Origin: Primulina eburnea
Lineage: Eukaryota > Streptophyta > Magnoliopsida > Lamiales > Gesneriaceae
Reading direction: 5' to 3'
Assembly: GCF_022965805.1 (NCBI RefSeq)
Contig: NW_027331510.1
Location: 806,001 to 870,000 of the forward strand
Length of the DNA: 64,000 bases
This document shows positions 3,442-40,410 of the stretch, piece by piece. The notes under the pieces are model-generated. The model was not told the origin of the DNA and searched no databases. It saw nothing but the letters and a program-made list of their open reading frames with translations. The stretch's first letter is position 1. Each line of letters starts with the position of its first letter. The position numbers were made by a program, and so were the translations under genes.

Positions 3442-5141
3442 GGTAAGCGAAGAACTTGACAGAATTTCAATAGGCTGATTAAAACCATCTCTGCTATTGT
3501 AGAAAATGTCAGGTCAGTAAACCAATAAGTCTTTCAGTTAGTTGTTCAATAGCTTTTATTTTCTTCACATAAAATATCTTATGTTATGTGTGAATTACAC
3601 ATTTTTGTTTTTTTTTTCAACAGAACAAAAGCAGATGAGTTGGTCAATATAATCAGCAGTCCGGAATATCCTCAGTCCCTCAGTATCCTGTCCTTCGCAG
3701 AAAAGGTACTGTTATTATCACTTGAAGGAGTTATGTGTTTCATTTATTTGTTTGAATATATAAGAGATTTGATATTTAGTATATTTAGGAGGAAGAAAAT
3801 TACATCGTCATGCTCAGAGAATGTCTGATAAATGTGTGTTTACTGAAGGAGTCGTGATGTTTACAGGTGGTCTTCAACTGTGAAAATTCTCAAAAGAGCG
3901 ACGGATTTATTTTTTCCTGTAGTCGTGTCATTGTTCTCGTCACCTCCAAGGTAAACTCTGCTGTGAAGAATTCCATTGCCACTTGTTATCTAATGATTCT
4001 AGTTAGTTATTATGAAATCAATTGTTCGCTACAAAGTCCTTTTATGTTCTCTTCTTTTGTGTAAGACAATTCATCTTTATGCCTGGATTTGTATGCTCGT
4101 GTCCATTGAAGCAGCAATTCAACATGTTGATCCTTGAAAATATGTTGTTTGTTAACTTTTTTCATTGAATACAGATTCCATTAGCTTTGGACATTCTCTT
4201 GGCGGAGTTGAACAGAGTCTGCATGTACATTGTGCCCAAATTTGTAGAATACTCTCCGGTAATAAATCTAATTTGGTGTTTTAAGCATTTGTTTTTTGTA
4301 AGTTTTCTATTTTTCTTTCTTATGGTTTTCTGATGTAAAAGTATGTGCAGTTTCATTTAATTTTAAAGTTCTCTTCAAGAGTCATATGAAATTATTGGAC
4401 TTGTTCAGAAACATTCTTGTTCTCTTTTGGTTTTTTGACAGAACTGCTGTAAATTGTTACCATATTTATGTTATATGTAACATGTATATTTTCAAACCAG
4501 AGAAGCTTATTTCAAAGCTATTGGCTACAAAGAAATTTATGGAAAGATCGAGAGCACTGATAGTTATGTAGAGAGGTTGAGTTCAATCATGAGACTCTAT
4601 GGAGCTTTAGTGCAGGTTTGGTGCTCCATCTCTACTTGAGTTTTTAACCAAAATCTTCCAATACATTTTACTGGTATGATACAAGCCTGAGTTCTGATAG
4701 TCTTGTTTTGACAGACTGAAATTGGTGGCTTTCAGAATCTCCATGGACTTAACGAAGGTTGGGCATGGCTTGCAAGTTTTCTAAATTCTCTTCCGGCTAA
4801 TCTTTATACCGCAGTTGCACTTCAACATTTTCTTGAAGTAAGCTGGCATTTGCCTTTTCACATTTTTTTATATTTGATGCATAAGTAAGAAGTCATTTAC
4901 GAATGTCCAGATGTCTGGATATGCCCTTTACCGAAGATACAGAAATCAATATGACAAGTTGCTGAGGATTATTGCCCGAGACTTCCTCAAAGCACTAAAA
5001 GAAGGCAATTCGGATTCAGTAAATGCCAAGCTGATCAAGGTGAAAACGTCTATAATTAATTACATAGAATCAAGCCAGTTCAAGAAAGAACCAGAAGGAT
5101 TGCAACTGAGAGACCATTTGGATTCGAATGATTTTTTTTGA
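3442..5141 (+). pseudogene. GLE1: GLE1 homologue copy 1, 3' exons 8-14 only in window
   Basis: C-terminal GLE1 domain, which in the family binds the DEAD-box helicase DBP5/LOS4 with IP6 at the nuclear pore. Exons by comparison with the complete copies: 3442-3512, 3624-3705, 3867-3950, 4175-4258, 4484-4615, 4715-4837 and 4911-5141, the last coding MSGYALYRRYRNQYDKLLRI and ending at a TGA. Exon 9 keeps a normal acceptor (CAACAG at 3618-3623). The exon 12 acceptor is lost: the sequence reads AACAT, where the other copies have AACAG, just before 4484. Residue changes in exon 12 are also unique to this copy (for example EIYG for EMDE). Exons 1-7 are either left of the Athila insertion, outside the window, or gone. 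Probably a non-functional remnant. Confidence 0.85.
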
Positions 5142-16050: not shown

Positions 16051-17835
16051 TGCTCACTCAATTCTAGGAATTTGATTTCTCTTTTTATGGTTCGCTCTAC
16101 ACCATTCAGATTATATAGTAATTGATACTAATTAGCCATATTTTAAGGTTCTGTGCTTTTAAGTTTTTAACTTCTCTCTTGTTTCTTTTCTTTCGTTATA
16201 ATATTTATTGTGGCTGCTATTTTAATAGCAATATACAGTTTTGTGACAAACTTATTATTAAGCTAAATGAAGTATTGCAGCGTAAAAATTTATCATTGCC
16301 AATGTGAAACGATTTGGGCATCTCGATTGAATCCTACAAGATCGAGCTGACAATAAACTTTGCTAGCATCTTCCAGCCCCATGCAAAACGTAACTGATTT
16401 GGCTTCTTTTTTTTTTGTTCCATGATGGTGGTAGTCAAACAACCAAGAAACTTCATAATTGTGATACATTAATGTTAATGGAAACGACACTTTTTGCATC
16501 ATTATTTGTGTTGACATTCATATTTTTCCAATAAACAAAATTACTAAGTTATGGCAATTGGCAACGTCGTAGGGAGTGTAAAAAATGAGAAAATTATCGC
16601 TTCATTCCCTTGCAGTCTTGAAACCGGTCTCATAGACCCCTGCAAGCGACAAATGAGTATATGTCAGCCACAATGAATTACAGCAGGAAGAGCCCACAAT
16701 TGAAGAATAGAATGATATAATACTAGAAACTGAAGTAGAAGTGTAAAACAGTAAGTATGGATTCTGTCTCCCTACTTTATTTTACCAGGAACTTTGAACA
16801 GCTTGAACTAGGGACAAAATTATACATTTGTCGATCCATGAGAAGATTTGTGATTAACTGTGGAGAGCGGCCGAGACACCGTGAAAACACTGGTGATCAA
16901 TGAGAAGATTAATAGTAGAGGAGCAAGAAAATATAAGTGGAAATTGGATCTCAACCTTCCCATGTTGGTATGTTTTTGGATCAAGAGTACTGAGGGTGGA
17001 TTACATGCGCATGCATGTTATGTATGATATTTATATTGCTAATGGTCCCATAAAAAGAACTACTTAACTTTGTTAATCATCATCGTATATGTCTAAGAAT
17101 TAAATTAATTAATGAAACGACTCCAATTAATTATTTGTATAATTCTCTAGCACATTTTCTACGTTTTTAATAAAGTAGAAGACATGCATGATTGATGTTT
17201 GGTAACACGTCAAGAAATATAACGTGGAAAGATTGTGAAAGCTCATTTCATGCTTAAAAATTAAAATTAGAAAAATGAAATATACCACGCATCACTTTTG
17301 TGATAATACTTACAAGCAATGTATCTATATAAATCATAAAAAGCATTATTAACCAACCTTGAAAAATATAATAATTTAAAAAAATTCAAATATATATATA
17401 TACATCTACTATTTTATATCTGTATTAGCGAGACGAATCATTCATATTCATATTTATAATTTTGATATAAAAACTGATTTAAGATTAGTTTGATGAACCA
17501 TGATAAAAATAAAAATAAAAATTTTACGTAAGTTTGAAATTGTTTATTCCCGATGATATTTGTGATTGAAATTTAAAAATAAAAGGTCCCCTACATGTGC
17601 GTGTTTGAGAAATAAATTAGATTAATGTCAGGGAAACAATTTAGCCTCCTCCTCCTCCTCCTAGCTCTGGTATCCCCGACTGTCTCACCTGTGCAGACAT
17701 TTGTCTTCTCCAGCGACCTTTTTGTTTGCAAAAGTAAATCTTTTCTTGTGGGAAAATGTAGCTTCTCTTTCCTTTCTCGTAGATTTTTTTTCTTTTTATT
17801 ATTGGAAAGAAGAAGAGAGACGCGCACTCTGGATG
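16051..17835. promoter_or_regulatory. Divergent coilin/GLE1 intergenic region
   Basis: About 1.8 kb between the start of coilin (leftward) and GLE1 (rightward), so it should hold both promoters and 5' leaders. It is AT-rich (17100-17580), with a CTC-repeat and pyrimidine-rich stretch at 17643-17800 close to the GLE1 start. The same region in unit 2 is split by the Tekay-type element at the position equivalent to 16751. No individual promoter element can be fixed with confidence. Confidence 0.55.
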
Positions 17836-20800
17836 ATGGTGTTGTCAAAATTCAGGGGAGCCGTTAATTTGGAACTTCGATGTCCACCACATATTAATGG
17901 AATGACGGAGGATCCACAACCTGATTGGAACTTTGACAACTTACTATCAGAGCTTGATACGATTGAAAAGAAGCTCATCGCGAATTTAGATCTTCCTGTA
18001 CCTTTTGACAAGAAACAGCCTAGGTAAATTTTTTATTTTGCTTCATTATATGAAGTTTATTGGTGATAACTTTGTTTTACTCATTCAGAAACTTGAGAGC
18101 TTCAAAGAAGAATTATTGCAGCACAGGAGGATTTGTGATGCATGTGTCAGATCATGGATTGGGTTTTTCTGATAGTGACACTGAAGAAGAGGTTGTTAAC
18201 ACATCCATGTTTTCAGGCAGAAGATTTGGTTTCGATGAATTCTATATGAGGTTTGTACTTGACTACTTATCAAATAAGAAATAAGTGAAATACTTGAAGT
18301 GCAAATCACTCATTACGAAGTATTATCTCCATATTCCGTCTTATTGTTTTCGTAGTTTTTGTTATGAGGCCATCTTCCTCTCCTTGTAAGTGAAAAATTG
18401 AATCATTTGTCTTTCTCATATCTATCACTATGTGAATGAGATGGAAATATTATCATAGAGTGAATTTCGGAATGATTTATTAAACAATAAACATTACCAT
18501 GTTGATTACTCCATTGTATGAAATACAATTTTTTTCTGGTAAAATTCTTGTTGTTTCTGCAAGGACTTATTTTTTCGATTAATAGGCTTGTTGGATTAAA
18601 TACTCATTATTTTCCCTTCATGATTAACAAGTTGACATGTTCTTTAATTCTTAGTGTACACCAGGTTGTTGATCACCCTTTTTTTTGCTTGCAGTGATGA
18701 TTCTGATTATGAGTTGTCTGTTGATGCTCAATGTCATTTGATGGATAAAGTGGGATTAGCAGAAGGTGCACTCCATGAGCTAAATCATGAATTTCAGCTT
18801 TATGTTTCGGTGAGTAGACATACTTGATGTGTGTGTGATGATTTGAGAAAAGGATATCAACGAGGTTAACAACTCTGAACTCTCTTTTTCCATCAACTCT
18901 AATTTTCATGATGGATTAGTGCGTGTTTGATCTTAATTTTTTCATTTATTCTTTTAACATCATGGGACTAATAGTTGTTGACCTTTCTTCTCATTTTTCT
19001 GACAACAGGAGGAAGTGAGAAATAAAATATCAATCTTAGAGACAAATTTGGTTACGGAGAATGAGAAGTTTGCTTGTGAAATTGCTAATATCGATAAGCA
19101 TAAAAGAACACAGCAAGAGAGGGGGCGAAAATTTGATTTGCAGTATCAACGTACAATGTACGACCTTTTAAATTGCATACCTCGACTCTTAATTTTCGTT
19201 ATGTTTCCTATATTTAAATGTTGAAATGGGTTTGAGACCCGACATATTTTATGTATGCTATGAAGATGTTCTTTCTTTTAGCAACTTCCTTTGGAGTTTC
19301 TCCTATAATAAGTGGCTGCTTGAAAGCCAATGTGGAAACTCTTCCTTTTGAAAAATCTTGTATCTGTAGTTGTACTACCTGATAACTCATAGTATCTATT
19401 GGTAATGGGAAGTAACACTTATCTTGTAATTGACTACCTGACAAAACTCATCAGATTTGTTACTGTTTTGAGATTATAAAGTTCCATGACACTTGTGACA
19501 ATTGGAAGGTCATTAAGGTGTACATATATGATTGGCATATGAATTCAATTTATCTGAAAATTGTTTAAACTATCTATGATCTACATCTCAATTATGATGA
19601 ACTTGATATGATTTTTCACGGCTCAGAAATTCTTTCAAGTGTTTAGCGAGGCTTTCAAGGTTGAGTTCCTATTATGTCTACTCCGATAATTTGAATAGAA
19701 TGAGAATACTGTGGTTAAGACTTTATTGAATTATGGCAGTGCAGAAGCACTTGATAATCACCTTACAGCTGTACAAAGAGATCATGAGCACATATCACAA
19801 CTAGAAGAGAAAAGAATAAGAGACGACGCAGCTCGTGAAGAGGCTAAATGGAAAGAGAAGGCTCTCATAGAAGAAAAAATACGTCAAGAAATGATCAAAG
19901 TTGAAGAAGAGGTTCTTTCCGCACCTATATCATTTAAATATTTTTTGTATCTAAACATGATGTATGCTTATTGGCGTTCATCGTCTATATAATTCTTTTA
20001 TTTCTTTTTCTGTTACGGCAACTAGACAATCTTATCTCAAATTAAGACAGCCCTTACTGTAATAGAAAAATGATTCTATTGAATTCATAAATATTTTCAT
20101 GAGCCTTTGGGAATTTGTTTTTCCCCCGTGGAAATGAGGCAGATGTGACAGACATTCATATATGTATGGTTTTTCTGTCCATTACTTCTTATGTACAAAC
20201 ATAAAAACGAGAACAAACTTTTAATTGATGAAAAATCTTCAGATATCCCAGCATGGTATTGTCTTCCGTATCTTACTGTCATGTTGTGTATGCATCTATC
20301 TGAAAGTTTCCAACCATTGGAAAATTGCTCAGAAAGAAATTGTTTCTAAATTATACACCAAATGATGGATGATCCATTTCATGCATTCGATTTGCCAAGA
20401 AAAACAGTTGTAGCTATGTGAATATGCATCCATCGTCCACGATTTGTTTTGTATCTTAATAACTGTTTTTTTGTCTGGTATTTTTGGATCAATGTAGGCT
20501 AGGTTACAAGCTGAGACAGCTGAAATGGCTGAAGTGGCTGCCGAAGCTGAGAAGCAGTATGTTGAAGAAAAGAAGCAAGCTGATGAAGCAGCTGCAACCA
20601 AAAATGCTGTTGAAACTTTAAGAAATGGTGTTCTCATGGTACTGGATTATTCGAAGAAAACTCTTGGGCAGGTTGCGGCTACAGTGTCTAACGATAAGAA
20701 ACGGGTTCCATTATCAGGTATTTGGGGACTTTGTTATGTTGATAAATAAGAATTTTCATTTTGTCCCCCATTCTAATATGAAGTTTGACTGAGTCTATTT

Positions 20801-22877
20801 GACAGAAAGACATATGACCAGAACTTCAAAAAATGCTTTAGAATTGGAGGATAAAAGACTACAGATTTATGAAAAGTTGACGTCTGAAAATGAGGCTATT
20901 AAAGGAAGTTCTAATCAGGTAAATCATTATGGATTATTCGAATTTCAAATTCTTAGATTACTGTATTGTACATTTAAATATCTTAACAGGTTTATAGAAT
21001 CATTTGTCCAAAATAAGTAAGGCACATAAGGTGGTCGCAACTCTGAAAAGATCACTGCATGCTAGAGTAAATTGTGTTTGGTGGTTCTTAGGATTCATTA
21101 TATGTCTGTGATGTTGTTCATGAGCACAATTTCAATGATATGACATTTATGAACCACAATTGTCTGTCCAATCCAGGGTAAGCGAAGAACTGGACAGAAT
21201 TTCAATAGGCTGATTAAAACCATCTCTGCTACTGTAGAAAATGTCAGGTCAGTAAACCAATAAGTCTTTCAGTTAGTTGTTCAATAGCTTTTATTTTCTT
21301 CTGATAAAATATCTTATGTTATGTGTGAATTACACATTTTTGTTTTTTTTTTCAACAAAACAAAAGCAGATGAGTTGGTCAATATAATCAGCAGTCCGGA
21401 ATATCCTCAGTCCCTCAGTATCCTGTCCTTCGCAGAAAAGGTACTGTTATTATCACTTGAAGGAGTTATGTGTTTTCATTTATTTGTTTGAATATATAAG
21501 AGATTTGATATTTAGTATATTTAGGAGGAAGAAAATTACATCGTCATGCTCAGAGAATGTCTGATAAATGTGTGTTTACTGAGGGAGTCGTGATGTTTAC
21601 AGGTGGTCTTCAACTGTGAAAGTTCTCAAAAGAGCGACGGATTTATTTTTTCCTGTAGTCGTGTCATTGTTCTCGTCACCTCCAAGGTAAACTCTGCTGT
21701 GAAGAATTCCATTGCCACTTATTATCTAATGATTCTAGTTAGTTATTATGAAATCAATTGTTCGCTACAAAGTCCTTTTATGTTCTCTTCTTTTTTGTAA
21801 GACAATTCATCTTTGTGTCTGGATTTGTATGCTCGTGTCCATTGAAGCAGCAATTCAACATGTTGATCCTTGAAAATATGTTGTTTGTTAACTTTTTTCA
21901 TTGAATACAGATTCCATTAGCTTTGGACATTCTCTTGGCGGAGTTGAACAGAGTCTGCATGTACACTGTGCCCAAATTTGTAGAATACTCTCCGGTAATA
22001 AATCTAATTCGGTGTTTTAAGCATTTGTTTTTTGTGTGTTTTCTATTTTTCTTTCTTATGGTTTTCTGATGTAAAAGTATGGGCAGTTTCATTTAATTTT
22101 AAAGTTCTCTTCAAGAGTCATATGAAATTATTGGACTCGTTCAGAAACATTCTTGTTCTCTTTTGGCTTTTTGACAGAACTGCTGTAAATTGTTACCATA
22201 TTTATGTTATATGTAACAGGTATATTTTCAAACCAGAGAAGCTTATTTCAAAGTTATTGGCTACAAGGAAATGGATGAAAAGATCGAGAGCACTGATAGT
22301 TATGTAGAGAGGATGAGTTCAATCATGAGACTCTATGGAGCTTTAGTGCAGGTTTGGTGCTCCATCTCTACTTGAGTTTTTAACCAAAATCTTCCAATGC
22401 ATTTTACTGGTATGATACAAGCCTGAGTTCTGATAGTCTTGTTTTGACAGACTGAAATTGGTGGCTTTCAGAATCTCCATGGACTTAACGAAGGTTGGGC
22501 ATGGCTTGCAAGTTTTCTAAATTCTCTTCCGGCTAATCTTTATACCGCAGTTGCACTTCAACATTTTCTTGAAGTAAGCTGGCATTTGCCTTTTCACATT
22601 TTTTTATATTTGATGCATAAGTAAGAAGTCATTTACGAATGTCCAGATGTCTGGATATGCCCTTTACCGAAGATACAGAAATCAATTTGACAAGTTGCTG
22701 AGGATTATTGCCCGAGACTTCCTCAAAGCACTAAAAGAAGGCAATTCGGATTCAGTAAATGCCAAGCTGATCAAGGTGAAAACGTCTATCATTAATTACA
22801 TAGAATCAAGCCAGTTCAAGAAGGAACCAGAAGGATTGCAACTGAGAGACCATTTGGATTCGAATGATTTTTTTTGA
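17836..22877 (+). CDS. GLE1: GLE1 homologue copy 2, all 14 exons, damaged exon 9 acceptor
   Basis: mRNA-export factor that activates DBP5/LOS4 on the cytoplasmic face of the nuclear pore. Exons: 17836-18023, 18089-18250, 18695-18809, 19009-19157, 19740-19911, 20498-20717, 20806-20918, 21177-21247, 21359-21440, 21603-21686, 21911-21994, 22220-22351, 22451-22573 and 22647-22877. All phases agree and give 641 residues. The N terminus has the plant motif DPQPDWNFDNLLSEL, residues about 155-340 form a charged coiled coil (HLTAVQRDHEHISQLEEKRI), and the GLE1 domain follows (IMRLYGALVQ, GLNEGWAWLASFLNSLPANL). The start could equally be the adjacent ATG at 17833. The acceptor before exon 9 reads CAACAA rather than CAACAG; the first downstream AG gives a stop near residue 398, while a TCAG at 21388-21391 would delete 11 residues in frame. 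Confidence 0.85.
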
Positions 22878-23466
22878 TGTTCCATTTTTTGACATCTATT
22901 GATGTGCGGTTCATCTGATCAATCATGTGCCAATTAGTGTTGCTGGACTACTAGAACACGAAAGCCAAACGTCGGGAAATGTTACCTAATTTGACTACAT
23001 CCTCTTGAATAATGGAGATCCTCCCAAATTTGAAGTGCTCCCAAAATTATACTCCATGACCAAAGAACACACAAAAGGGCGGTTGAGAAGATTTTTTTTT
23101 TCTTTCGCAAATTCGTTGTTCTGAATTGAATTTTTGTTTTTGCAGCGGAGAGCATACGTATACTACTAGCAATTTTTTTTAGGAATTATCGAGCAATACA
23201 TGTGGATTGTCAAACAAAATATGGAACTTTTCCGTTGTACTACAGCATTATGTAAAACAAGGTAGATCGAATCCCAATTTAGTTATTGTCGTACATCAAT
23301 CAAATCCAACTGATATTTTGAGCTTCTCTATTTATTTCAAATATTTCTTTTGGAACATATAAATTTCAAGAAAAAGTAACAAAAATGAGATACATTTGAC
23401 TCGCTGCTACTGTCTGGATTGAGGGCTCTGTAGCTTGATTTGATGCTTCAATGTAATTATTCTTAT
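22878..23466. other. GLE1/RGLG convergent intergenic region, copy 2
   Basis: 3' flanks of the convergent genes. No additional gene is seen. Confidence 0.7.
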
Positions 23467-26054
23467 CTATGGATACAATTTTATTCTTGTCGTGATCGTG
23501 CTTCGGCATAACGGACAATAAACAAGGCCTATTCCACAGTCACAACAGGTCTGGCCAAGAACGACAAAACCAAAACGATTCAAGATTGCATCATTCTTCG
23601 TGAAATAACCTCGTTATGTAGAGAGAAGTTGGCAATCTTTACCTGATGTCCACAGCCAAAAGCCATGTCTTTTGAGTGTCTCTTACAAATTGGACAACCC
23701 TGACAAAGAAACGAGTAAGATTAGAAATTCAAGAAACAAAACACTCAAATGTTGAAAACTCGACACCAAACAAGCATTCTACTCAGCTAGCTGTCCGTGT
23801 GCTCGACAAGTGATAACAATTGCCCTGCTAGGATTATGGTGAATCCATTACCTTGTTGTCATACATATTGCTCGATGGTGATTCATGGACAGAATAAAAC
23901 AGAGTACTGTGCGGAAAACTGCTTGAACCATACGGCTTAAGTGAACTGCCACTGGAAGAAACTCTTCCATGAGAAGGTGGCGGAAGAACAGCTCTGCTTG
24001 GAGGATTCCCAGTCTGATGGCTGATACAGAAAATAAAAATACTTCCAATATTTTATCTCTATACTAGAGTTTCACACACACACACACACACCTACATAAA
24101 TGCATACATGTGTGTGTGAGTGTGTGTGTGCGCGTGAGTGAGAGAGAGAGCTACTACAATGTTTGATAAAGAATATCCAATCATTACCCGAGTATGTCGA
24201 GTTCTATGGTTGCAAGGTACTGAGAAGGTATTTCCATCAGGGCTGAGAGGGCAAATTCCGCCTCTTTTCTTGAATAATCAATGCTCTTTGACATGATATT
24301 TGTGAAATTGACGAACTAGGAAAAACGTAGGAATACGGAATAGTTTATCATTCCAGCAGAGTTTGCACTAAACATTTGATTTTTTATTACTATGAGGTTT
24401 GCTACCTGAAAATTGTCGAATGCTCTTGCTGGAATGTTTCATCGAATTCCTGCATGATGTCCCATGGGCCATCTCCAACTCCGACAAGGATAATCGGTAA
24501 GGGGTATTCACTGCTTTTGAACGTAAATTTAAGTATTATACTAACAGGAAAATGGTCTCATTTTGGTTTAATATTACCTAGCTTTTACTATAGCTTCAAC
24601 GGTTTTCTTCTCCTGTGAGCTCAATTGACCTTTTGGTGTATCACTGCTTCTTGTCACCTACACGCACATTCATTCGTTATTACATGATCATGAATATTAA
24701 TAACAACTAAGGATATTTCCCATAAGTCCTAGGCTTTTAATGCGCTTACTCCGAACATGAAATGCTAGTCGAGCACCTTGTAAATAGGATATGCATTTTT
24801 CAGGCATTCTGAGAATATCTGAACTTAACATTACATTCGAGGAGTTGAGAGGCAATTCATTCCAACAGTCTCTTACTGTGGCATCTTTCATAACAAGAAC
24901 TTAAAGTGAATATAGTCAGTGTACCTGGCCATCTGCGATGATGAGTAAAACATGGTACTGGCCTCTCTACTTTCCTCAACAATGCTCATAGCCATTTCAA
25001 TAACCGGTGCAAATGATGTTGGACCTGAAATCAATGTAGAATTTGTGACTACTCATCATGGAAGACTCAATACAACGAAATTAGTCCCTTTGAACTTAAG
25101 GTTTTCATAATTCATGCACGGTTTCGGTTATGCTCACTGGCTCTACTCTACCAAAAAAGGTGTGGATGCGAGCACCAGAAAGACGAACCTGAGGAACTAA
25201 CTGGCGGTATCTGGTTAGCACCTCTTCGAATCCCTCACAAAACCTTGCGTCTGGATAAAAACTAAAGACATGTTGGTCGTGTGTCGATGCTGCAAGAAAA
25301 ATTTGGACCGTCATTACAACTAAATGATCGTTTTCTTGTTGATTAGATATATCCCTCTTGAAACTTTACCATCTCCAAATCCAAAACATGGAATTAGGTT
25401 ATCTTCATCAAAAGATGACAGGGTTTTCCCAATGATGGTTATGGCTTGTTCGTAGGGATTTTGGACATTCCCGAGATGATGCAAGCCATTCCGGTTAAAA
25501 GACTTGGCTCCTGGTTTTCATCAAAAGTTAGCATAATCCTATAAATTTTTCTGAAGGATTTGTCGAAAAATTTATATATATGTTTGAAGTTTTCAACCTG
25601 TCCACTCATTACTCTTTGTGAAATCAATACCAACAATTAGATTGGAAGACCCTAATCCCGACCGGGAGAGGGCAGCCGTTACCTGAGAAAAAGTAAATAA
25701 TTATTTGGTACTCCATTTATCGAGATGATGTGGATAGTTATTCGGAATAGAATGCTGAATTAAATTTTTTTGAGCAGAAGTTGCCATTTTTTTTATAAAT
25801 TATATATGCAATTTCATAATTTTTATAGATGTGACATGGATTAAGACAACCTAGCATAACCATTCAGTTGTCCTTGCACCGCTAAACCAATCAAATGGAA
25901 CAAGAATTCCGCATGCAATTCAACACGATGGCCTAATTACCTGATCCAAAGTTTGGTAATTGTCATCAGTTCTTGAGAATTTCTTGTCCAGCCGGCGTTG
26001 TGGTGCAAGGGTCGACGGAGCATGGTGGTGCAGTGGGGTACAACACTGATGGTG
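23467..26054 (-). pseudogene. RGLG-type copine/RING E3 ligase, copy 2, two frameshifts
   Basis: Same exon structure as copy 1, shifted by about 17.74 kb; the stop codon is at 23467-23469. It shares the 2-nt insertion after IVEES, here AGTAGAGAGGCC. It also has a 1-nt deletion in the exon coding [19 protein letters not shown]: the plus strand reads GTTTCATCG near 24436 where copy 1 has GTTATCATCG, so the frame is lost after EFD. In the RING the second CPIC is CPLC. The first exon is not recognisable. Very likely a pseudogene. Confidence 0.85.
24073..24151. repeat. CA/TG/GA microsatellite, unit 2
   Basis: The equivalent of the repeat at 6332 with a longer CA tract, about 8 repeats. Confidence 0.8.
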
Positions 26055-27624
26055 GTGCAGAGCATGTTAGCCACTATCATCAAATGAAGATGAAAATGTT
26101 CTTGGAACTGAGCTTGTATTTCCCATTGATTATTACAGAAAATTTAGCTCCAAATTCAAAAACGAATCACAATTTGTTTGTAGCACAAACCGTAAAATTT
26201 GAGATGACATGTTATTAAATAACATGTAAAATTTGATTTTCCTTGCAAGATTGGCGAAAGCTTATTGTTATCCAAGACTTTCCAAAAAATTTCTGATGAT
26301 GAAATTTCGATAAAAAGAAATGTACGTGGATTTTACTTGCATTCAATTAATTTTTGAAAAATAGAAAACAAAAATCATAACTAACTTTTTTTTACAAGAT
26401 AATTATGTGCATCATATATGTACATGGACGAGTTGACCGTAATTTTGGTCAACTACCATTATATTTATTTTGTTAAAAAAAAGAAATTTGGAGGTGATAC
26501 AGCCATATCGGATTATAGAAATATCGGAAAAAAATTAATTTGTTGTGCCAAAACTTTAAGTTAAATATAAATTAGTAGATTAATTTAAATTCAAATCAAA
26601 TAAATTTGTATTAATTCATAGTTTATTCATTTTATCGAAATCGAAGAATTGAAATTGTAGGTTTCCCATATAAAATATTAATGTCTGTCGCGTTTGGGAT
26701 ATTGTTATAATGATTTGTTTTAGCTATAATGAGACTAGATTTGCACCAAATGAGAAACAATTGGAAGGTGAGCGATCAACTCCTGCATTTGTTAGACAAC
26801 GAATGATATCATGGTTTCTAGTTGGATATGAGAATGAGATGGGAAGCAAGGATTGTTGATGTCTCATTCTGGGTGCAGCTGCTCTTATCAGATGCATTGG
26901 CATCCCGAAGCAGGATGAGTTCGTCGTTCTGCTTGTGAGATGTAAGGGGGGAATCCCTCTTTTTTTTTTTGTGCAAGACTTTGTACAGAGAGAAAATATT
27001 CCATAATTTGAAAGTAGCTATTACAAGCAAAAAAATTGTGCTAGTGTATTTTATATATGTTTTTAAAAAACATATGACCATAATCTTTTAATTCCAGGAT
27101 GATTTCAATCCTATTAGGTACATTCTTAATTTGTGCAATCGTCCTCTAGTCTTGTGCGGTAAACTTTGTCCACTTTCTGTACCCAACTATGTCCCTTTCA
27201 GCTCGCGTGTTTTTCAAATTGTCCATTTATTGAATCGAATTTGACGCCAAATAATTTTGTTAATATGAGAGTTATCTAATGCTTTCAAAAATATAATAAA
27301 TTATAATCACAAACCGAATATTAGTTTAACGAAATTTAAACAAACACTAATACTTTTTTTAGCTTATGAGTGGAATCGAAATCCTTGTAAAAAATACGCG
27401 TAAATTTCCCCATGAAATAGAAAGATACCATCCAACGAGTGGCCACCATGGTTATTCTTCAGGTGTTTAAGCAGATGGAGAATGATATAGAAGTGTTCGG
27501 TCATTTATCGCAGATGGACCACAAAAGTCGAGACCCGCCGATGCTTAAATTAAAAACAGTACTCATCCTCATATCTCCTCTCGTGATCTTAGGATATCCA
27601 CTGTTGGGCCAAGCGCACTTCCTC
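26055..27624. other. RGLG/coilin intergenic region, copy 2
   Basis: Colinear with 8311-9881, with the palindrome at 26207-26227. No gene seen. Confidence 0.6.
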
Positions 27625-30600
27625 TCAGAGCTTTATAGGACCATGATTTACGAGCTGAACTCTGTTTCTGAGGACTATTTCCCCCAATTGTTGTACCCTC
27701 GAGGCATTCTTCCTCCATCTATTTCCTTGTGATGGTTGTACCATTTTAGCATTCTTTACAAAACTTGTTCTGTCAACTACTTGAAGCTTCTTGTTAGTTT
27801 TGCCCCAACCACTTTCTTGTGATACTTTTTCCTTTTTGGCATCTAGGGCCTCACTGATTTGGTCCCAAACGTTCAAATCCCCAGTTTCTAAAGGAAAAGA
27901 CCCAGCCAGTGTCAAATCATCGAAGCACACAAGTCAGCAACTAAATTTATAATGCCGGAAAAGAAAAATACCTGCAGAAGGGGGTACTGTTTCTTCACTC
28001 TGGTTTAGTTCTCCAGTCTCTACAAACATGACAGTGTGGCTAAGTAGACCTCTTCAACCCTAGTTAACTGGATCTTCAACCTTAAAAATGAACCGTAGTA
28101 TATACCTGTGCCGGATATCTCTGTTTGTGTATTGATGCGGCTAGATGACCCTGGTTTTGAAGCTTTTTTGTTGTCCAGAGGACCCTCACTCACCAAACTA
28201 GCATCTACATTAACTGAACCTAAACTTCCATCCTTGATAATACGGACATCAACAAGTGATGAAAAATCAATCTGCGTGAAGGATGATCCAAGAAAGAATT
28301 ATTGAGAGTTGTAAAAAATGTAGGCTGGAGGGAAAAAATAATAATCCAGATCCAAAAGGCTTACCTCCAACGAACCATCTTCTTTACAAAGAGAGTTATC
28401 TAGTGGTTCAGCTCCACCCTCATCCGCCTTCTTGGAAACAATTGGATAATCTGACGCTGGTGCCAATATTGCCTGATTGGATTCAGTATTGTAAAAAGTT
28501 ACTTTTCCAACCTAGATAAAAGTAAAAGAACAGTTAGAAGAATTGTGGTTATATGATATTTTGGAATATTTACTAAATGCACAAAAAAAATTGAGCATTA
28601 CTCGATATGCTGAAATCTCTGGGGTCCAGGTTGTCGATAACTCCAGGATACGATATGCAAGGAGATCACCTTCCTGCAAAATGGGAAAAAATGCTTTTAG
28701 ATTCTTCACATGTGAGATGTTATCAGCTAAAAGATCAGGCAACATATTCCATCTAGCCTCTATAATAATTAATACAGAGGAACTCAATACACGAGACAAG
28801 GAATCATAATCATTCTCGAAAGAATGAGAAATGAGAATCAACCTTAGGCATGCCAGGAAGAGTAGGAAGCTTCTCAAAGTCGATTTCTCCTATCGGTTGT
28901 TCCCTTGTTTCATTTGCAAATACTTTGGAATTGTCATTGTCTGGATTTTTATAGCCATTCCGTGAAGTAAATGGAGGATCGGCTAATCCCCATTTTTGGC
29001 CCTTCTTCTTGGTAGTAATCCCATTCCACTGGGTGGTTTCCTGAGAGAAAATCCCAACTTAATTAAAAAGGGAACGTGCAAAACTCTGAATGGTAAGCAT
29101 CAACATAATTGTAAAGCAGGAAACCAAGAGTACGTGGCTCAGAAAAGAGTGTCACAATCTCTAGGAAAAAAATGGAATACAAATGATTAAGGTATTTAAT
29201 GAAACTTGTTGAAACAGCATAAATTTATAAAGATCAAGCCATTTTCATTCTAAAGGAGGGGAGACAAGGTGGCTGCTACACCAATGTTATAACTTACAAG
29301 CAATTTCTGGATACTATGTATACGTGATCTCCCTTATTTATCTCAACCAAGCCTTGTACCATCCTCACAAGAGGTTGAGACAAGAATGGATCTCACATTT
29401 CCTAGCTTTACAACGGATCATTTCCAATAAGTAAACCACAAATGTTTTAAGTGTCTAAAAGAACGATTTTTTGGTAAAATATTTGTTTCCATTTACATTA
29501 ATGGGACAATGTGATCCTCAAATATTCGATATTTAATTTCACTGTATTTGAGAGCTTATAAGGCCAATTTTAGATTGTAGCAAAATGTTATTCCTTGTTG
29601 GCATTATCCAATAACCTGAATAGGTGTTTGAGATAGCTGAAGTTTGAATATTGCCGAGCTTGAGCTTTTCCCTGATCATTTGAAGCTCGTGAGCCAACTC
29701 CTGGGCCCTTTATTAATATTGACTTTTATTAATATTGAATATTATTGTAATATAATAATGTGAAGCCTTATTTGAACTAAATTCAAAGCAGATCAAGCTT
29801 GAGTTCAAGTTTGAAAATTCATGAGCTCTGATAAAGGCCCAAAAATTTAGAATAGCTCATTCACAACCCCCAATCCCCCCACCCCCTCCCCAAAAAAAAA
29901 AAGCTTGAGTACACCTGCTAGAACCAGAGGAGCACCTAGGGCACCAAATTGCGGAATGGTGGTCGCAAGGAGTTGTTAATGAAACCAATACACTATAGAA
30001 ATCTTTTCACAATACGTGACTGCAAATCAAGAAGGGATGCGAAAAATCTAGAAGACATACCAAAGTTGGCTGGACATCTTGTTCTGCTGAAAAATAAAAT
30101 TCAGGCATCATATATTCAGAGAAATATGGCATGGTGAAAATAGAAATAGAATGACCTTAAAGAATATTATAAATTTGTCCTCAGGAGCAGTCACATAACA
30201 GCGTTCTACAATTTCTTCCACTGGCAAATCAGTAGATTAGGTGCACGAAAATGGAATAGGAAGGAAAATCAACTTATTCATTGCGTTAAGCTATAATAAA
30301 AACCATAACATCACTATGCGCCAAATACCTTACAAGGTCAGCGACCATGATGTTTCAGTCAGCCATGATTAATTTCAGTAAACCAAGATTCTGTTAATTT
30401 CTTATTGTTGGAATCAAAGATTTAGAATTTATTAAAATCAACAACTCACCACACATATAGACAGTAAATATTCACAGACAGAGATTGCGACCTTTTTGAA
30501 AAGGTTCAAAGCGGATATGTCCTGGCCTTATTACAATGGGAACAACTTCATGCTCCTCATCACTTTCCAGAATCGACTGCTTAGCTGTGTCTCCATTTTG

Positions 30601-33600
30601 ATTTGGCATTTCATGAGCATCCTCATCATTATGTGTTGGCTGTTCACATGCATCATCATTATTTTGAGTCGGCTGCTCGTGCATATCACCATTGATCCGA
30701 GTGATGTGCTCATGTACATCACTATCATTATTTTGATTTGGATGTTCATGAAGCCAACTAGATTGATTCTGTTGCCATTTTTTGCCACTAAGAGGATTAT
30801 TTTGAGGGATTGCTTCCAACATAGCTGCACATTTAAGACTTCACTTTAATACCAATGACATGCAAGGTTGTCAAAGTCAGTATTAAGTAAATAAGACTAC
30901 TCACCAATCCCTTTGGTAGGCCATCCACCATATTACATTCAGAAAGCGCTTGGTGTTTTTTCCACTTTTGCTGTAAGATCGAGGCACTCAGTTTTTAACA
31001 CCAAAAAAGTGGTGGGGGCCGAGAAAAGTGTGATCACTTACAAGTCCTTTTGATTGGCCATCGACCTTTTTCCTTTCAGCGTTAGCTTGGTCCTCTTTCC
31101 AATTTCGCTGCAAAATTAAGCCAGTCATATCCAACATACTTTGAATTACTGGTACAAGTGAACTCTTAAGTTATGTATTTGACAGCTTACAAGACCCTCT
31201 GATTCGCAGACTGCATTTTTCTTTTGTATATTTGCCATTTCCCTCATCCATCCCCTTTTCGCATATTTCCGCCTGGCACTTCTACTTGGAACCTGCACAT
31301 GCACATAGTAAATACATTCAGATTCTGGCTTATCGTGGAAAATAGAACACAATCAAGCAGTATAGTCGATGGTGAACCGATTCAAAATCGCAGTTGGGTC
31401 ACAAAAAAATAAAATTTTAATCACATGCATCATGCATCCTAAGAGATAAATCACAAGGATGAAAATTGAAAGTGCAGAACAGTTCACATCGAAACAATTA
31501 GGAAATGAATCAAGGAAAGCTAAAAGTACATGCTGGGTTCAGTGAAAGGGGTTTTCAAGAGAGAAGCAGATTTTTTATTCACACAAAACTCCTAAATTAT
31601 ATGATTCTTGGAAGGAATCATCATGCTGTGCTCTTGGAATCATCATAAGTCATAACAACTGGTACCAACCAGATAGAAGAACTACACCATTCAACACTTT
31701 GTTCTCTAAAAGCTACAACATAACGAAATAAAGATCACTTTACAGCTAATAGGAGATAACCTTTTTAGTTTCCTTTGAGGCAATTTTGGTATCCTCAATT
31801 GCCTTGTCATTCTTTTGAACTTCACCATTTCTAGAAATGTTATAGCAGAACAAAGATATGAGAAATTCTATAAAAAAGAGATGGTATAAACAATAAGGCT
31901 ACGGATAGAGATGGATTGTGTACATCGAAGTTAATGGAAAAGAAAAGAGGATGAGACTATTCTGAACTTGGGATTTAAAATTAGTCTGATATAATAACTT
32001 TAATAAAAAAACTCTAGGAATTTAAAAGGCTATGGATTAACTGACCGCTTCATGCCATCCACAGGCAAATCACTCTTGTCAAGTGGGGCAGGACTTTCCT
32101 CATTGTTTTCCATGTTATCTTTGGCATCATAATCAGTTTTTTCCTCCTTTTGAGAAAGGCTTTTCTGTATTGTAAGGACTCCCTGATGAGAGTTTTCGAT
32201 TTTTTCTATGTGAACATTGTCAGCAACAATCTGAGAGGCCTTAGCCCGCTGTTTCTTCCTCCTATGTTGAAAAGAAAAGGAAGGTGTATGAATTTCAACA
32301 GAACCATGCAGAGTAAAGAGTGTGATCAGAACTAAAGCCATGCCTGTTTGTGTAAAATTAATGCAAGGGAAAGAGCAGGTACTTAGAGCCTTGGAGTTTC
32401 ACTGATGCTTTCCTTTTTCGATTTCTTGGATCAGCATTTCCACCAGAAGGACCTTCCATATCTTCCAAAACATTTTCATCTTCCTCGTCATATTCAACTT
32501 CAGGGTCATCATCACTCTCAGAACCTCCTTTTTCTTTCTCAAATTCCTCACTTGCCAAAAGCAAGACACCATTTGGCACATAATGATTCTCCATGGCTCT
32601 CAGTTCCTCAAAAGCATCAGCGTTATCATTTCCCTTGATAGATAAAATTTCTCTCCTCTTCCTGACTCTAATTCCACACATGCAACAGTAAAAATCATAA
32701 TCATATCTTCTGCATTTCTGATTGCAAAACACCTTTTGAACTAACCTGATAATTTCATTAACATTCAAAAGGAAAGTTGATTCAAATGATGGCAACCCAA
32801 AGCCAGACATCTGAAAGAAATATTAAGAAACAACGAGACCAAAAAGTATCGTAAAAAATATCCTCTGCATATAAAATGTGAGCGTCATTTCAAACTCATA
32901 ATTGAAATACTAAAAAACCAAATATAAAACGAAGTATTTTGTTTCTTTAAGCTTAATTATAATCACCATTTTCAGTAAGGAAGGTCAATTCTTGTGAAGA
33001 AAACGGCTGGATGTAAGCTGTTTCCTTACCACGTCACATCCAGAATCCAAATAATTAACTCTTTTCCAAGATAAAAAGTACTTAAACTAAAAAATATAGG
33101 CAACGAATCAACAAAACGACCAGGATAACCTGAAGGACATAGAAAGAATTTTGGAAAGAATAGGGAAAAACAAAAGCATATATGAATCGCAACAAAATTA
33201 TCATAAACCAAAGCCGGAGCTATTAAATTATTTGGCAAACCAAAAAAACATGCATGTAAAAGAATTTTACATGTATGAATTAACTCTATAGCAGGAAGTG
33301 GAATATACACATCTACACACTACGCTAAACAATAAAATCAAGAGAGAGACAGCACATTCTTGCTCGGTTTGCGCAAAATCTTTCAAACCAAAAGATTATT
33401 CAGTAGACATCCACACCAATTAAGAGCAAAAGTAAATCATAAGATCACGTTCCTGGTGTCAAATCAAAAGCAGAAACTTGTGAGCTGCCGATCCCATAAA
33501 TCCTGAGCGTGAATTGCATACATGGATTAAACAAATATATAAACAAAGCGTGGGGATTTTTTTAAAAAACAATTTACCGAAAGGAGAAGGCCATGAGGGC

Positions 33601-33793
33601 AAGATTGGTGGAGCCGGAAAGCCTGGAGCAGATGCGAGGCAACATCGGAAACGGTGACGTGTTGGCGCGGTTTCAACAGTACCCAGCTCCGATTCAAGCC
33701 CTCTAACTTCTGGGGTTCGCTCAGTATGTCATCATCTTCAAAACCAGTCGGATTCTCTTGGTGTCCTCCATAGCCCAGAGCTAATTCTTCCAA
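27625..33793 (-). CDS. Coilin homologue, copy 2
   Basis: Colinear with copy 1 at a constant offset of 17,743 bp and nearly identical over more than 6 kb (I spotted about one difference inside the gene, at 30201). It has the same exon set: N-terminal domain at 33793-33578, acidic and basic middle exons, two related 22-codon exons at 31107-31042 and 30970-30905, the RPGHIRFEP exon ending near 30478, and Tudor-like exons at 29040-28843, 28673-28602, 28511-28365 and 28271-28106. It shares the exon 8/9 phase mismatch and the C-terminal frame change. The Tekay-type element lies about 700 bp upstream of its ATG, so its promoter is separated from the GLE1 promoter it faced before. Confidence 0.82.
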
Positions 33794-34498
33794 TGCTCAC
33801 TCAATTCTAGGAATTTGATTTCTCTTTTTATGGTTCGCTCTACACCATTCAGATTATATAGTAATTGATACTAATTAGCCATATTTTAAGGTTCTGTGCT
33901 TTAAAGTTTTTAACTTCTCTCTTGTTTCTTTTCTTTCGTTATAATATTTATTGTGGCTGCTATTTTAATAGCAATATACAGTTTTGTGACAAACTTATTA
34001 TTAAGCTAAATGAAGTATTGCAGCGTAAAAATTTATCATTGCCAATGTGAAACGATTTGGGCATCTCGATTGAATCCTACAAGATCGAGCTGACAATAAA
34101 CTTTGCTAGCATCTTCCAGCCCCATGCAAAACGTAACTGATTTGGCTTCTTTTTTTTTTGTTCCATGATGGTGGTAGTCAAACAACCAAGAAACTTCAGA
34201 ATTGTGATACATTAATGTTAATGGAAACGACACTTTTTGCATCATTATTTGTGTTGACATTCATATTTTTCCAATAAACAAAATTACTAAGTTATGGCAA
34301 TTGGTAACGTCGTAGGGAGTGTAAAAAATGAGAAAATTATCGCTTCATTCCCTTGCAGTCTTGAAACCGGTCTCATAGACCCCTGCAAGCGACAAATGAG
34401 TATATGTCAGCCACAATGAATTACAGCAGGAAGAGCCCACAATTGAAGAATAGAATGATATAATACTAGAAACTGAAGTAGAAGTGTAAAACAGTAAG
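33794..34498. promoter_or_regulatory. Coilin copy 2 proximal upstream region
   Basis: Left part of the divergent intergenic region, ending in the left target duplication GTAAG (34494-34498). Equivalent to 16051-16755. No single promoter element is identified. Confidence 0.5.
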
Positions 34499-35504
34499 TG
34501 TAGTGACCCGTTCCAGAATCACCTACTAATCAGAACTTAAGCATGCAATTAACTTAATAAAACTGAATCAGATAAACAGCGGAAAAACAACATATACAGC
34601 CCGATCGAATCAGTAAGTACGAATACTAAAACAACCAAATCAAACTAAATCCCAAGAATAAAATACCAGCAACTACAGGTCAACCCCTGCTAGCTCCCTG
34701 TCCTCTCCCTCCTGGACCGTCCAACCTGAGACCTGCCCCATCGAATAGGGTGTCCAAAACAGAGATAAACCGAGGACGTGAGCATAAAACGCTCAGTACC
34801 GAAAGAATGAGTATACAAGACTATGACATGCATGTATGCAAAATGTACTGGATACCAGGGTCTGGGTATAACGAAAAACTGCTCAGGCAAATGACGTCAA
34901 GGTATGTAGCACTCTGCGCCGTCGCACCAGGAGGTGGCTCCCATACCATAAACCTGTGGATATACCGGTATCCTGACCACCGTCGGCCAACGGGGTCCAA
35001 CCATCCACAACAACCGAGGGCTGAGCACCCTCTGAACAGGCTATCTCAAAAGATAAACAGGCCCAACATGATTATGCAAATGCCGCATAATAAACCATGC
35101 ATCATATGTCAGATAATAATGCAACACATAAACATGCAACACATAGTAAAGCATACTCAACCAGGATATCTCGGATAGTACTTCCGTACCTCAAACCAGT
35201 AGATCCTAGTAATCAGCCCTAGAATCAAGCCTACAATCCAAGTGATACCATATCACTAAACCACATCTAAAAGCCTTAACTAGACTAATAGATACTTCCA
35301 AATCTCAAGGGAACCTAGAACCATACCTGCGTCCGTAGTCAGCCCACTGATGCCGCTAGCTCCCAACTAGAGCACAGCTCCGCTACAAAGCCAGTAGCTC
35401 CCTGCTAGTGCCCGAACCTCGGGAAAAGCTAGAAACCCATCAGAAACGACTAAAACGCTCTGGAACTCTCGGAATTGGTAATTGAAAAGTGAAGCCTCGC
35501 GCCT

Positions 35505-35514
35505 CTATTTATAG
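35505..35514 (-). promoter_or_regulatory. LTR TATA box
   Basis: CTATAAATAG on the minus strand, with its partner in the 5' LTR at 41499-41508. The 5' LTR copy would drive the element. This placement is inferred from sequence and from the motif array just upstream. Confidence 0.6.
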
Positions 35515-35517
35515 ACG

Positions 35518-35770
35518 ACGATCGGACGATCCGATCCACTTCGGAAGATCCGATCCTGTGCACTTCGGACGATCCGATCCACTTCGGACGTTCCGAACTC
35601 TGCATGTCTTCCACGTGTCCAGCCACCTGTCTTCGGACGATCCGAACCTCTTCGGACGATCCGAACCCTGACACGGTCTACTGTTGACAAGACTCGGTCT
35701 GACACCGAACCGAACGGTCCATCCGAACCCACTTCGGACGATCCGAACCTCTTCGGACGGTCCGATCCTG
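35518..35770. repeat. Array of TTCGGA-N3-TCCGAA motifs in LTR U3
   Basis: About eight copies or close variants of TTCGGACGATCCGAA (near 35520, 35542, 35562, 35583, 35632, 35650, 35733 and 35752). Each is an inverted repeat with 6-nt arms and a 3-nt spacer. They sit directly upstream of the TATA box on the transcribed minus strand, which suggests a transcription-factor-binding or enhancer role. The same array is at 41512-41764 in the other LTR. Confidence 0.85.
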
Positions 35771-35841
35771 GTTCGTTCCTTCCGAACTCGCAGAATATAA
35801 TTAATCCAATAATTACTCAATTTAGGCATCGGGATACTACA

Positions 35842-35853
35842 TTCTCCCCCTCT
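35842..35853 (-). other. Polypurine tract
   Basis: On the minus strand AGAGGGGGAGAA directly abuts the 3' LTR, as expected for the plus-strand primer of reverse transcription. Confidence 0.85.
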
Positions 35854-35982
35854 AAAAAGGATTTCGTCCGCGAAATCGAGTCTGAAGAATAACAATTCTG
35901 AACAATCAATACATTCATCTCAAGAATGAATTACAAATTGAAAGCCCAACTGAAATTACAATCATAACTGAAAATGCTACAA

Positions 35983-38900
35983 CTAGAACAACTCAGGATG
36001 CTCTGACCGCATGCGACTCTCTAGTTCCCAAGTAGCTTCTTCAGTACCTCGGCGCTGCCACTGCACTAAGACAAGAGGAATAGTCTTATTCCGCAGTACC
36101 TTATCCTTCCGGTCTAAGATCGAAACCGGTCTTTCTACAAAAGACAAATCCGGATTCAACTGAACTTCTGTCGGATGCAAAACATGGGACTCATCCGCTA
36201 CGTATCGTCTCAACAAGGACACATGAAACACATTGTGAACACTAGACAGATACGGTGGCAAGGCTAATCTGTAGGCCAAATCTCCCACACATTCCAAGAT
36301 CTCAAAAGGACCAATGAATCTCGGAGATAGCTTACCCTTGAGTCCAAATCTCAGAATCCTCCGAAAAGGTGATACCTTGAGAAACACTTTCTCGCCTGCA
36401 TCAAAATGAAGAGGCCTGCGCTTGGTGTTCGCATAACTCGCTTGTCGATCCTGAGCAGTCTTAATCCGCTGCTTGATCACAAGAACTTTATCCTTGGCCT
36501 GCTGAATCAATTCTGGACCCTCGACCTGTCGTTCTCCGACTTCCTCCCAGAACAGAGGAGTACGACAACGTCGACCATACAACGCTTCAAACGGAGACAT
36601 ACCAATACTCCTATGAAAGCTGTTGTTGTATGCAAACTCTATCAGTGGCAAATGATCCTGCCAAGCTGGCCCGAAATCCATCACACAAGACCTCAACATA
36701 TCCTCAAGCGTACGAATAGTCCTCTCTGACTGTCCGTCAGTCTCTGGGTGATACGCAGTACTCAAACTCAAAGTAGTGCCCAAAGCTTGCTGAAAGCTAC
36801 CCCAAAATCTAGACGTAAATCGAGGATCTCTGTCACTAACGATACTCACAGGCACACCATGAAACCGTACAATCTCCTGAATGTACAACCGTGCCATCCG
36901 ATCGAAAGTGAAATCTCTGTTATACGGAAGAAAATGGGCAGACTTGGTAAGCCGATCTACTACAACCCAGATAGCATCTCTATTCCCCACAGACATAGGC
37001 AAGTGAGTCACGAAGTCCATCGTGATATGCTCCCACTTCCACTCCGGAATAGGAAGATTCTGCAACAAACCTCCAGGTCGTCGATACTCTGCCTTTACCT
37101 GCTGACAGACCAGGCACTTGGAGACATACTGATAAACATTGCGTTTCATACCTTTCCACCAAAATCGAGTCCTTAAATCTTTATACATCTTGTTGCTCCC
37201 CGGATGAACACTCAACTTGCTACGATGAGCCTGGGACAAAATCTCCTCCCTCAAAGTGTCATCCTCCGGTACAACAACACGACCAGATAAGCACAAAAGA
37301 CCCTGAGACTGATAGTGGAAACCAGAAGTATTATCTCCATCAGCCAACCGAGCTAATTTCTGAACCTTAGAATCAGACATCTGAGCATCTCTAATCCGAG
37401 AGTACAACACTGGTTCAGACAAAATAGTAGCCACACGGATACTCTCTGATCCCTTCCGATGCTTATAATTGAATCCCATCGAACAGAAATCCTGAATAAT
37501 CCCAGATACAGCACAAGTCTGAAGAGCAGACAATCTCACCTTGCGACTAAGAGCATCAGCCGTGAGATTCGCAGATCCTGGATGATACTTGATCTCACAA
37601 TCATAATCCTTGAGTAGATCCATCCAGCGACGCTGACGCATGTTCAACTCTGCCTGAGTGAACAGATACTTCAAACTCTTATGATCGGTGAAAATCTCAA
37701 ATCGCTCACCATACAGATAATGGCGCCAGATTTTCAAAGCAAAAACGATCGCTGCTAATTCCAGATCATGAACAGGATAGTTCTCCTCATGAGGCTTCAA
37801 CTGCCTCGACGCATAAGCAATCACATGCTCATTCTGCATCAAAACACACCCTAGACCCTGCAAAGAGGCGTCGGTGTAAACACTAAAACCACCAGATCCA
37901 GCCGGTAAGGCCAAAACAGGCGCAGATGTCAACCGTCTGCGAAGCTCCAAGAAACTCTCTTCGCACTCTGATGTCCACTCAAATGAAACATCTTTCCGAG
38001 TGAGCTGAGTAAGTGGCTTAGCAATCTGAGAGAAGTTGACAATGAAGCGGCGATAATACCCAGCCAATCCCAGAAAACTGCGGATCTCGGCTACTGTCGT
38101 CGGACGCGACCAGTTCAATACCGCCTCCACCTTGCTCGGGTCAACTGAAACTCCCTCGCTAGAAATAACATGACCAAGGAATACAACCCTGTCAATCCAA
38201 AACTCGCATTTACTCAACTTCGCATAAAGCTGATTCTCGCGAAGTATCTGTAAAATAATTCTCAAGTGTTGTACGTGTTCTCGCTGATCACGCGAATAGA
38301 TTAAGATATCATCTATGAACACCACAACAAATTTATCCAAGAAGTCTCGAAATACCCGATTCATCAGATCCATAAAAACTGCTGGTGCATTCGTCACCCC
38401 AAAAGGCATAACCAGAAACTCATAATGCCCATACCGGGTCCTGAATGCAGTCTTTGATATATCTCCCTGATGAACTCGAAGTTGATGATAACCAGACCTT
38501 AAATCGATCTTGGAATACACAGAGGTACCTTGCAGTTGATCAAATAAATCATCAATCCGTGGCAACGGATACTTATTCTTTATCGTAGCACGATTCAACT
38601 GCCGATAATCTATGCAGAGCCGCATAGAACCATCCTTCTTTTTGACAAAAAGAACTGGTGCTCCCCACGGGGACACACTGGGTCGAATATACCCCTTGTC
38701 AAGAAGATCCTGCAACTGCTGTTTCAATTCTTGCATCTCTGATGGAGCTAAACGATAAGGAGCTCTGGAGATTGGTGCCGTGCCTGGCACTAAATCAATG
38801 CTGAAATCCACTTCCCGAACTGGAGGAAAACCAGGAATCTCCTCGGGAAAAACATCCGGAAAATCGCAAACCACTGGAATGTCACTGACCCCGACACTGT

Positions 38901-40410
38901 CTGCGGACGAATCAATAGCATAGATAAGGTAGCCTTCCCCGCCCGACTCTAAGGCACGACAGGCTTTCAGAGCAGAAACCACAGGCATCGGGGGTCGCGC
39001 TCCCTCTCCATAGAAAAACCAACTGTCGCCCTCCACTGGACGAAACTGCACGAACTTCTGGTAACAGTCCACAGTAGCTCTATACACAGTCAGCACATCT
39101 ATTCCCAGAATGCAATCAAAATCCTCCATCGCAAGAATCATCAAATTAGCAGTTAAGATATTACCCTCAAACTCTAGAGGACAACCCATCACTAGACGTT
39201 TAGCTAACACCGAATGACCCATCGGTGTGGAAACAGATACCACAATGTCCAAAGAAGTGAAAGGTAAAGCATGACGCTTAGCAAACCTCGCAGATATAAA
39301 TGAATGCGATGCACCAGTATCAATGAGAACGTAAGTAGGTAATCCACATAAATTACAAATACCTGCAATAACTCTCTCGTTCTCCTCAGCAGCCTGATCC
39401 TGGTTAAGAGCAAAGACCTGCCCTTGAGTACGCGGTCGGAGGTTAGAGCCCTGAGTAGACTGTCCCTGCTGTGGCCTCTGATGAACTGAAGCCTGAGAAC
39501 CAGATCCTGATCCTCCACCCATCTGTGGACAATCTCTCTTCATGTGGCCCATCTCACCGCACCTGAAACAAGCACCCGCAACTCTGCGACAACGCTCTGT
39601 CGGATGGTCCTTCCCGCAATGCTGACACGGGCCCTTCTTCTTCCCAAAATGGTGAACTCCTCCAGATCCAGAGGAAGAAGAAGTAGATCCAGCCTTCTTA
39701 AATGATTGGGCACGGGGACCCAAAGAACTAGTAGGACGAGCAGACTGCATGGCTCGACCCCTCAGCAAACTGCCCTCTGCCTGGCGACAACGGTTCACAA
39801 GGCCCTCATACGACGTCGGATCATCACAGACCACGACCCGATCATAAATCTCCTGATTGAGGCCCTGAAGAAAATGATTATACTTGGCCACCGCATTGTC
39901 ACTGACGTGCGGAACATATGGGAGCAACTCAAAGAACTTCTGCTGATACTCATCAACAGACAAACTCCCCTGCTTCAGATTGATCAACTCAATCGCCTTG
40001 GTCTGCAGAAGAGCTGGCGGAAAGTAAAGCAGCATGAAAGCAGCTCGGAAATCGGCCCAAAGAACTCGGCCCTGACGCTGAACTATCGGTGCAGAGGTAG
40101 ACCTCCACCACTTACGTGCACCGCCCTCCAGCAAGAAATCAAGGGTATCCATCTGCTGCTCCGCCGAGCACTGGAAAGACTTGAAACAGCTCTCCATCCT
40201 CTCAAGCCAGTTCTCCGCAACATCCGGAGTCTCGCCGCCCGAAAGAGGTTTCGGCCCCATCTGCAAGAACCTATGCATACTGAAACTCCGAGGCTCATCT
40301 CGTCGGTGTGGACGACGTTCCCGATGCTCTCGACGACGCTCCCGATCGTCGCGGTCTCCCCAGCGTCCCACGCTGCCATGACTACTAGCATCGTCGTCAA
40401 AACCAGACAT
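35983..40410 (-). CDS. Tekay-type gag-pol polyprotein, intact
   Basis: One open frame of 1,475 residues. Order: gag core (about 40-230); zinc knuckles C262-C265-H269-C274 and C281-C284-H289-C294; aspartic protease with LIDTGAS (D364); reverse transcriptase with [20 protein letters not shown] and FIDD (698-701, a variant of YVDD/YIDD); RNase H (D847, D909); integrase with H1062, H1069, C1099, C1102 zinc ligands and catalytic D1132, D1193, E1229 (35 residues between the last two); and a C-terminal chromodomain-like segment (about 1419-1475, ending EATWE...HPELF). All expected catalytic residues are visible and there is no stop or frameshift, so this copy may still be autonomous. The chromodomain-like end supports chromovirus (Tekay/Del) placement. 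Confidence 0.95.

Follow-up and report, generated by a model that had tools for sequence, protein, structure and literature searches.

Can a plant carry a splicing lesion in every copy of a gene on which it depends? The question is raised by a window of 64,000 nucleotides, positions 806001-870000 of the unplaced contig C980 in the assembly of Primulina eburnea, a member of the Gesneriaceae (812 Mb in 1224 contigs; PMC10778706 gives 18 assembled chromosomes), which holds three copies of the gene for the plant mRNA export factor GLE1. A sequence-only reading of the window had proposed that all three were damaged, that their losses were complementary and that no copy in the window was clean for an essential gene. 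The features concerned, in window coordinates, are:

1..3375, strand unassigned: right end of the LTR retrotransposon inserted into intron 7 of GLE1 copy 1, an element most of which lies to the left of the window
3376..5141, + strand: 3′ part of GLE1 copy 1 (exons 8-14), with exons 1-7 outside the window
3624..3705, + strand: exon 9 of copy 1, acceptor CAACAG kept
4484..4615, + strand: exon 12 of copy 1, acceptor lost (AT at 4482-4483)
16748..34498, + strand: tandem duplication unit 2, GLE1 copy 2 and its downstream region, borders set by self-comparison
17833..22877, + strand: GLE1 copy 2, 14 exons, which give an open frame of 642 codons when spliced at the model exon borders
21359..21440, + strand: exon 9 of copy 2, 82 nt, acceptor AG lost (AA at 21357-21358)
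34499..41835, strand unassigned: LTR retrotransposon between units 2 and 3, its LTRs 99.85% alike
41836..53318, + strand: tandem duplication unit 3, with GLE1 copy 3
42921..47966, + strand: GLE1 copy 3, 14 exons, with the same single lesion at the exon 9 acceptor
46448..46529, + strand: exon 9 of copy 3, identical acceptor loss (AA at 46446-46447)

The 14-exon gene model was borne out. The exon-joined reading of copy 2 runs through its 642 codons with no stop, and its protein matches the Pfam GLE1 domain (PF07817) over residues 355-587 with an E-value of 2.5e-42 (145.4 bits, against a curated cut-off of 24). In copies 2 and 3 the frame and every other splice site are clean, the exon 9 acceptor being the only lesion seen in copy 2. 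The acceptor readings proved exact: CAACAA precedes exon 9 at 21353-21358 (copy 2) and 46442-46447 (copy 3), as against CAACAG at 3618-3623 in copy 1; and AACAT precedes exon 12 of copy 1 at 4479-4483, as against AACAG at 22215-22219 and 47304-47308 in copies 2 and 3 respectively. The changes at both exons are substitutions, without gaps. Within the window, then, all GLE1 copies are damaged and none is clean.

Two parts of the original description do not stand. Copy 1 had been called truncated; its exons 1-7 are present at 794.5-797.7 kb of C980, outside the window on its left side. What separates them from exon 8 is an LTR retrotransposon of about 11.6 kb (C980:797,810-809,375), which has an LTR pair 99.3% alike and the target duplication ATGTT on both sides. 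Nor is the idea of meaningfully complementary losses supported, as copy 1 has further lesions: CG stands in front of exon 3 and AA in front of exon 5, and exon 4 contains two additional bases (a +2 shift).

That both 14-exon copies have lost the exon 9 acceptor is correct for each, but this represents one event. Units 2 and 3 are 99.8% alike over 11.5 kb, and self-comparison and a tree of 14 GLE1 copies both derive copies 2 and 3 from a single duplication, which excludes two independent losses. In the tree copies 2 and 3 are joined with support of 100/98, copy 1 comes next (99/96), and the three window copies fall with two more from C980 in a single split (100/99). The element between the two units has the target duplication GTAAG (34494-34498 and 41836-41840), and its undisturbed target is seen at the junction of units 1 and 2 (16751-16755). 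A further partial unit lies to the left of copy 1. Over exons 8-14 the divergence between copies 1 and 2 is 1.7%, and they differ several times more at 3376-5461, the 3′ part of GLE1, than downstream at 5461-16756; this unevenness suggests that either gene conversion or stepwise duplication may have taken place. Elsewhere in the window, at 55201-56845, a stretch of about 820 bases occurs twice in tandem; the two are 99.9% alike and have inner 144-base repeats.

Searching the rest of the genome for an undamaged GLE1 answers the question posed above. An exon 8-9 query against the whole assembly found 16 places, all of which were read: the three window copies; C980 at 62, 65, 118, 172, 424, 618 and 649 kb; and, off C980, C6, C4, C1100, two places on C723, and C375. 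The acceptor is AG at 14 of the 16 and AA at the other two, which are copies 2 and 3. This tally covers the places found with exons 8-9; a query from the 3′ part of the gene turned up a few others (C723:93 kb; C980:360 and 609 kb). The copy on scaffold C6, at 39.04 Mb, has 14 of 14 exons, GT-AG borders throughout and an open frame of 642 residues, so the proposal that the species has no clean GLE1 is rejected. In Arabidopsis, null mutations of GLE1 cause embryo lethality (as stated in the part of PMC8357054 that cites Braud et al. 2012); hence an intact copy would be expected, and the C6 copy fits this expectation.

A second GLE1 gene is probable on C4, where protein-guided reading finds the exons in frame; its intactness is less firm than that of C6, and joining its exons gave a reading out of frame, an effect of the incomplete alignment of exons 1-2. 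The last GLE1 exon is doubled behind this gene (C4:45.1369-45.1374 Mb). Hits on C5 and C12 were considered as possible additional GLE1 genes; within the 6 kb covered at each place the matches are N-terminal pieces and one middle piece only, at 47-82% identity. The C6 and C4 genes differ with a dS of 0.245 and an omega of 0.23 (exons 3-14). The same two lineages are found in Primulina tabacum, which has, among the homologues listed, at least one protein of each kind (C6-like P0001, 96% alike to the C6 copy, and C4-like P0002). From the dS value we infer that the pair may fit the duplication (allopolyploidy) which PMC10627561 describes as common to core Didymocarpinae. The C980 copies, in contrast, are later duplicates inside each lineage.

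The window copies share with the intact C6 copy both the 14-exon gene and the domain, and they differ from it by about 3% (2.9-3.5% over exons 8-14). We placed the changes on branches with three C4-lineage copies as outgroup, excluding 12 differing sites that were left unplaced; this test was chosen after the frames had been seen, and its counts are small. Since the C6 split the copy 2 branch has gathered 6 silent and 27 replacing changes, compared with 8 silent and 5 replacing on the C6 branch (Fisher p 0.010; omega 1.19 versus 0.17). The copy 2 ratio is not different from neutral (p 0.83), while that of C6 is (p 0.0017); the copy 3 branch has 6 silent and 29 replacing changes. As far as such counts can tell, copy 2 is thus shown to have evolved under no measurable constraint on its protein after it parted from the C6 lineage. 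Such a branch would be expected to lose about one splice dinucleotide and to gain 1.4 stops among 33 changes, so that the finding of zero stops is unsurprising (P 0.23). Copy 2 was thus free of constraint over most of its branch, and the loss of the acceptor need not be the cause.

Other C980 copies look relaxed too, judging by their silent/replacing counts: 9/41 for the copy at 65 kb, 7/22 at 649 kb (not different from neutral, p 0.65) and 6/22 at 172 kb. This pattern is not shared by every C980 copy, as those of the C4 lineage, compared with C4, have omega values of 0.29-0.33, which are pairwise counts over the whole comparison and not per branch.

It is very probable that the window represents three tandem segmental duplicates of GLE1 on an unplaced contig which are unprocessed pseudogenes, or are becoming so, by ordinary decay. 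One G-to-A change, common to copies 2 and 3, removed the exon 9 acceptor; copy 1 has separately lost its frame and the acceptors of exons 3, 5 and 12, and has gained an LTR element in intron 7. As the exon 9 acceptor is lost, a normal GLE1 product is not expected from copies 2 and 3. Their transcripts, if any, would mostly skip exon 9 (with a stop after 428 residues), retain intron 8 (after 402 residues, which disposes of retention as an in-frame rescue) or use the AG 11 bases into exon 9 (after 398), and so would stop after 398-428 residues, losing most of the GLE1 domain. With products as short as this, the plant presumably relies on the C6 gene and probably on the C4 gene too.

The assignment agrees with the features of unprocessed (duplicated) pseudogenes: copies 2 and 3 retain 14 exons with their introns, an apparently intact relative exists on C6, disabling lesions are present (AA before exon 9 in copies 2 and 3; exons 3, 5, 12 and the +2 shift in copy 1), and no protein constraint is measurable along the branch of copy 2 (6 silent changes against 27 replacing, small counts as these are). 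Copies 2 and 3 differ from the usual case in being young and in having a single disabling lesion; the probable loss of function in them is read from one base and a neutral ratio obtained from small counts. Two points speak against decay: the frame and the other splice sites of copies 2 and 3 are clean, and public annotation predicts a protein of 504 residues (P0008) from copy 3, albeit one without exons 7-11.

Could copies 2 and 3 nevertheless function through an in-frame cryptic acceptor? The sequence-only reading had suggested a site 33 bases downstream (+33), and its frame arithmetic was right: joining there removes 11 residues (398-408) and gives a product of 631 residues, whereas the nearer AGs lead to early stops, after 399 residues for +8 and 398 for +11. 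Joins at +36 and +60 also hold the frame (630 and 622 residues), that at +77 stops after 404, and elsewhere the copies have no stop or frameshift. The nearest upstream AG in intron 8 lies about 70 bases from the acceptor. We scored these sites with a home-made acceptor matrix, small and without a branch-point term, built from 37 acceptors of four gene copies (the functionality of two of which is not proved). The undamaged site scores 9.0 and the weakest of the 37 reference acceptors 4.0; the +33 site scores -0.9, +36 scores -6.4, and +11 and +60 both score 1.1, with 8.0 for +77, a join which leaves only 5 nt of exon 9. The matrix is coarse, as the mutated AA site itself (2.9) outscores both +11 and +33. 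The +33 site is therefore possible and in frame, but weak, with higher-scoring AGs at +11, +60 and +77. It is also not used in the public model of copy 3, which omits exons 7-11 instead; and among the 120 homologues listed of 335, a gap over the 11 residues is seen only in this model, which is copy 3 itself. Considering in addition the unconstrained copy 2 branch, rescue of copies 2 and 3 by +33, +36 or +60 seems very unlikely.

That these copies make a new, shortened protein resembling P0008 is a proposal we consider extremely doubtful. The P0008 model has the residues by which copy 3 is distinguished from copy 2. It continues uninterrupted across a join, worked out by hand from protein against DNA, in which exon 6 is 20 bases longer, with a donor at 45827, and is followed by exon 12. 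A match to the C-terminal part of Pfam GLE1 remains (E 8.2e-28), but it covers no more than profile positions 140-249 of 250, under half of the domain; moreover P0008 is a public model, a prediction, and the branch is unconstrained.

Equally hard to credit is an assembly or sequencing artefact, in which the A would be an error or the duplication false: near-identical copies are hard to assemble and C980 is unplaced and exactly 4,200,000 bases long (a round figure which we take to resemble a scaffolding cut), but the substitution is shared by two copies between which stands an LTR element that has a target duplication of its own, the divergence of the window copies from C6 over exons 8-14 is far beyond read error, and the public copy 3 model likewise lacks an exon 8-9 join, although the same assembly underlies it. 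A telomere-repeat search of the assembly gave 668 matches, those listed being on C1-C3.

Beyond the window, C980 carries other GLE1-derived DNA. A satellite with a unit of about 650 bases combines GLE1 sequence (32 bases of leader, exon 1, intron 1 and the opening 35 bases of exon 2) with about 325 bases of other DNA; its unit junctions number 91 (at 3 mismatches or fewer), all 91 of them on C980 at 15-784 kb, with 0 in the control. A shorter variant of about 550-575 bases has a piece of intron 5 added. The tandem repeat finder, run with periods up to 500, missed this satellite.

At C980:646,006-651,172, a DSPc phosphatase exon, MKP1-like by its name in relatives, runs in frame into GLE1 exon 2 via a 4-base GATC overlap. 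A second copy of this fusion, at 168.5-173.7 kb, is 99.7% alike over exons 8-14 and has lost one base in exon 4. Public annotation gives the models of the fusion, 821 and 763 residues long, the names GLE1-like isoforms X2 and X4. The likely donor of the phosphatase exon is an MKP1-like gene about 5 kb from GLE1 on C6. PF07817 and PF00782 occur together only in P0006 and P0009 among the 120 proteins listed of 1103 matching P0006, which has both domains above the cut-offs.

A more far-reaching proposal is that the first 0.87 Mb of C980 might be an amplification block seeded by GLE1, with a locus-specific satellite, a transcribed and translated MKP1-like::GLE1 chimera, expression of copies 2 and 3, and shortened or regulatory RNAs acting on the C6 gene; taken as a whole, we regard this as unlikely.

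Under the reading that we prefer, of duplicates in ordinary decay, this work shows that when all the visible copies of an essential gene carry a splice lesion, the cause may be the choice of window. For Primulina eburnea it charts a group of GLE1 duplicates in decay, some of which are publicly named ‘mRNA export factor GLE1-like’, and has brought to light an exon-derived satellite and a gene fusion. It also counsels caution, in that the GLE1 copy number of this plant should not be taken as gene dosage.
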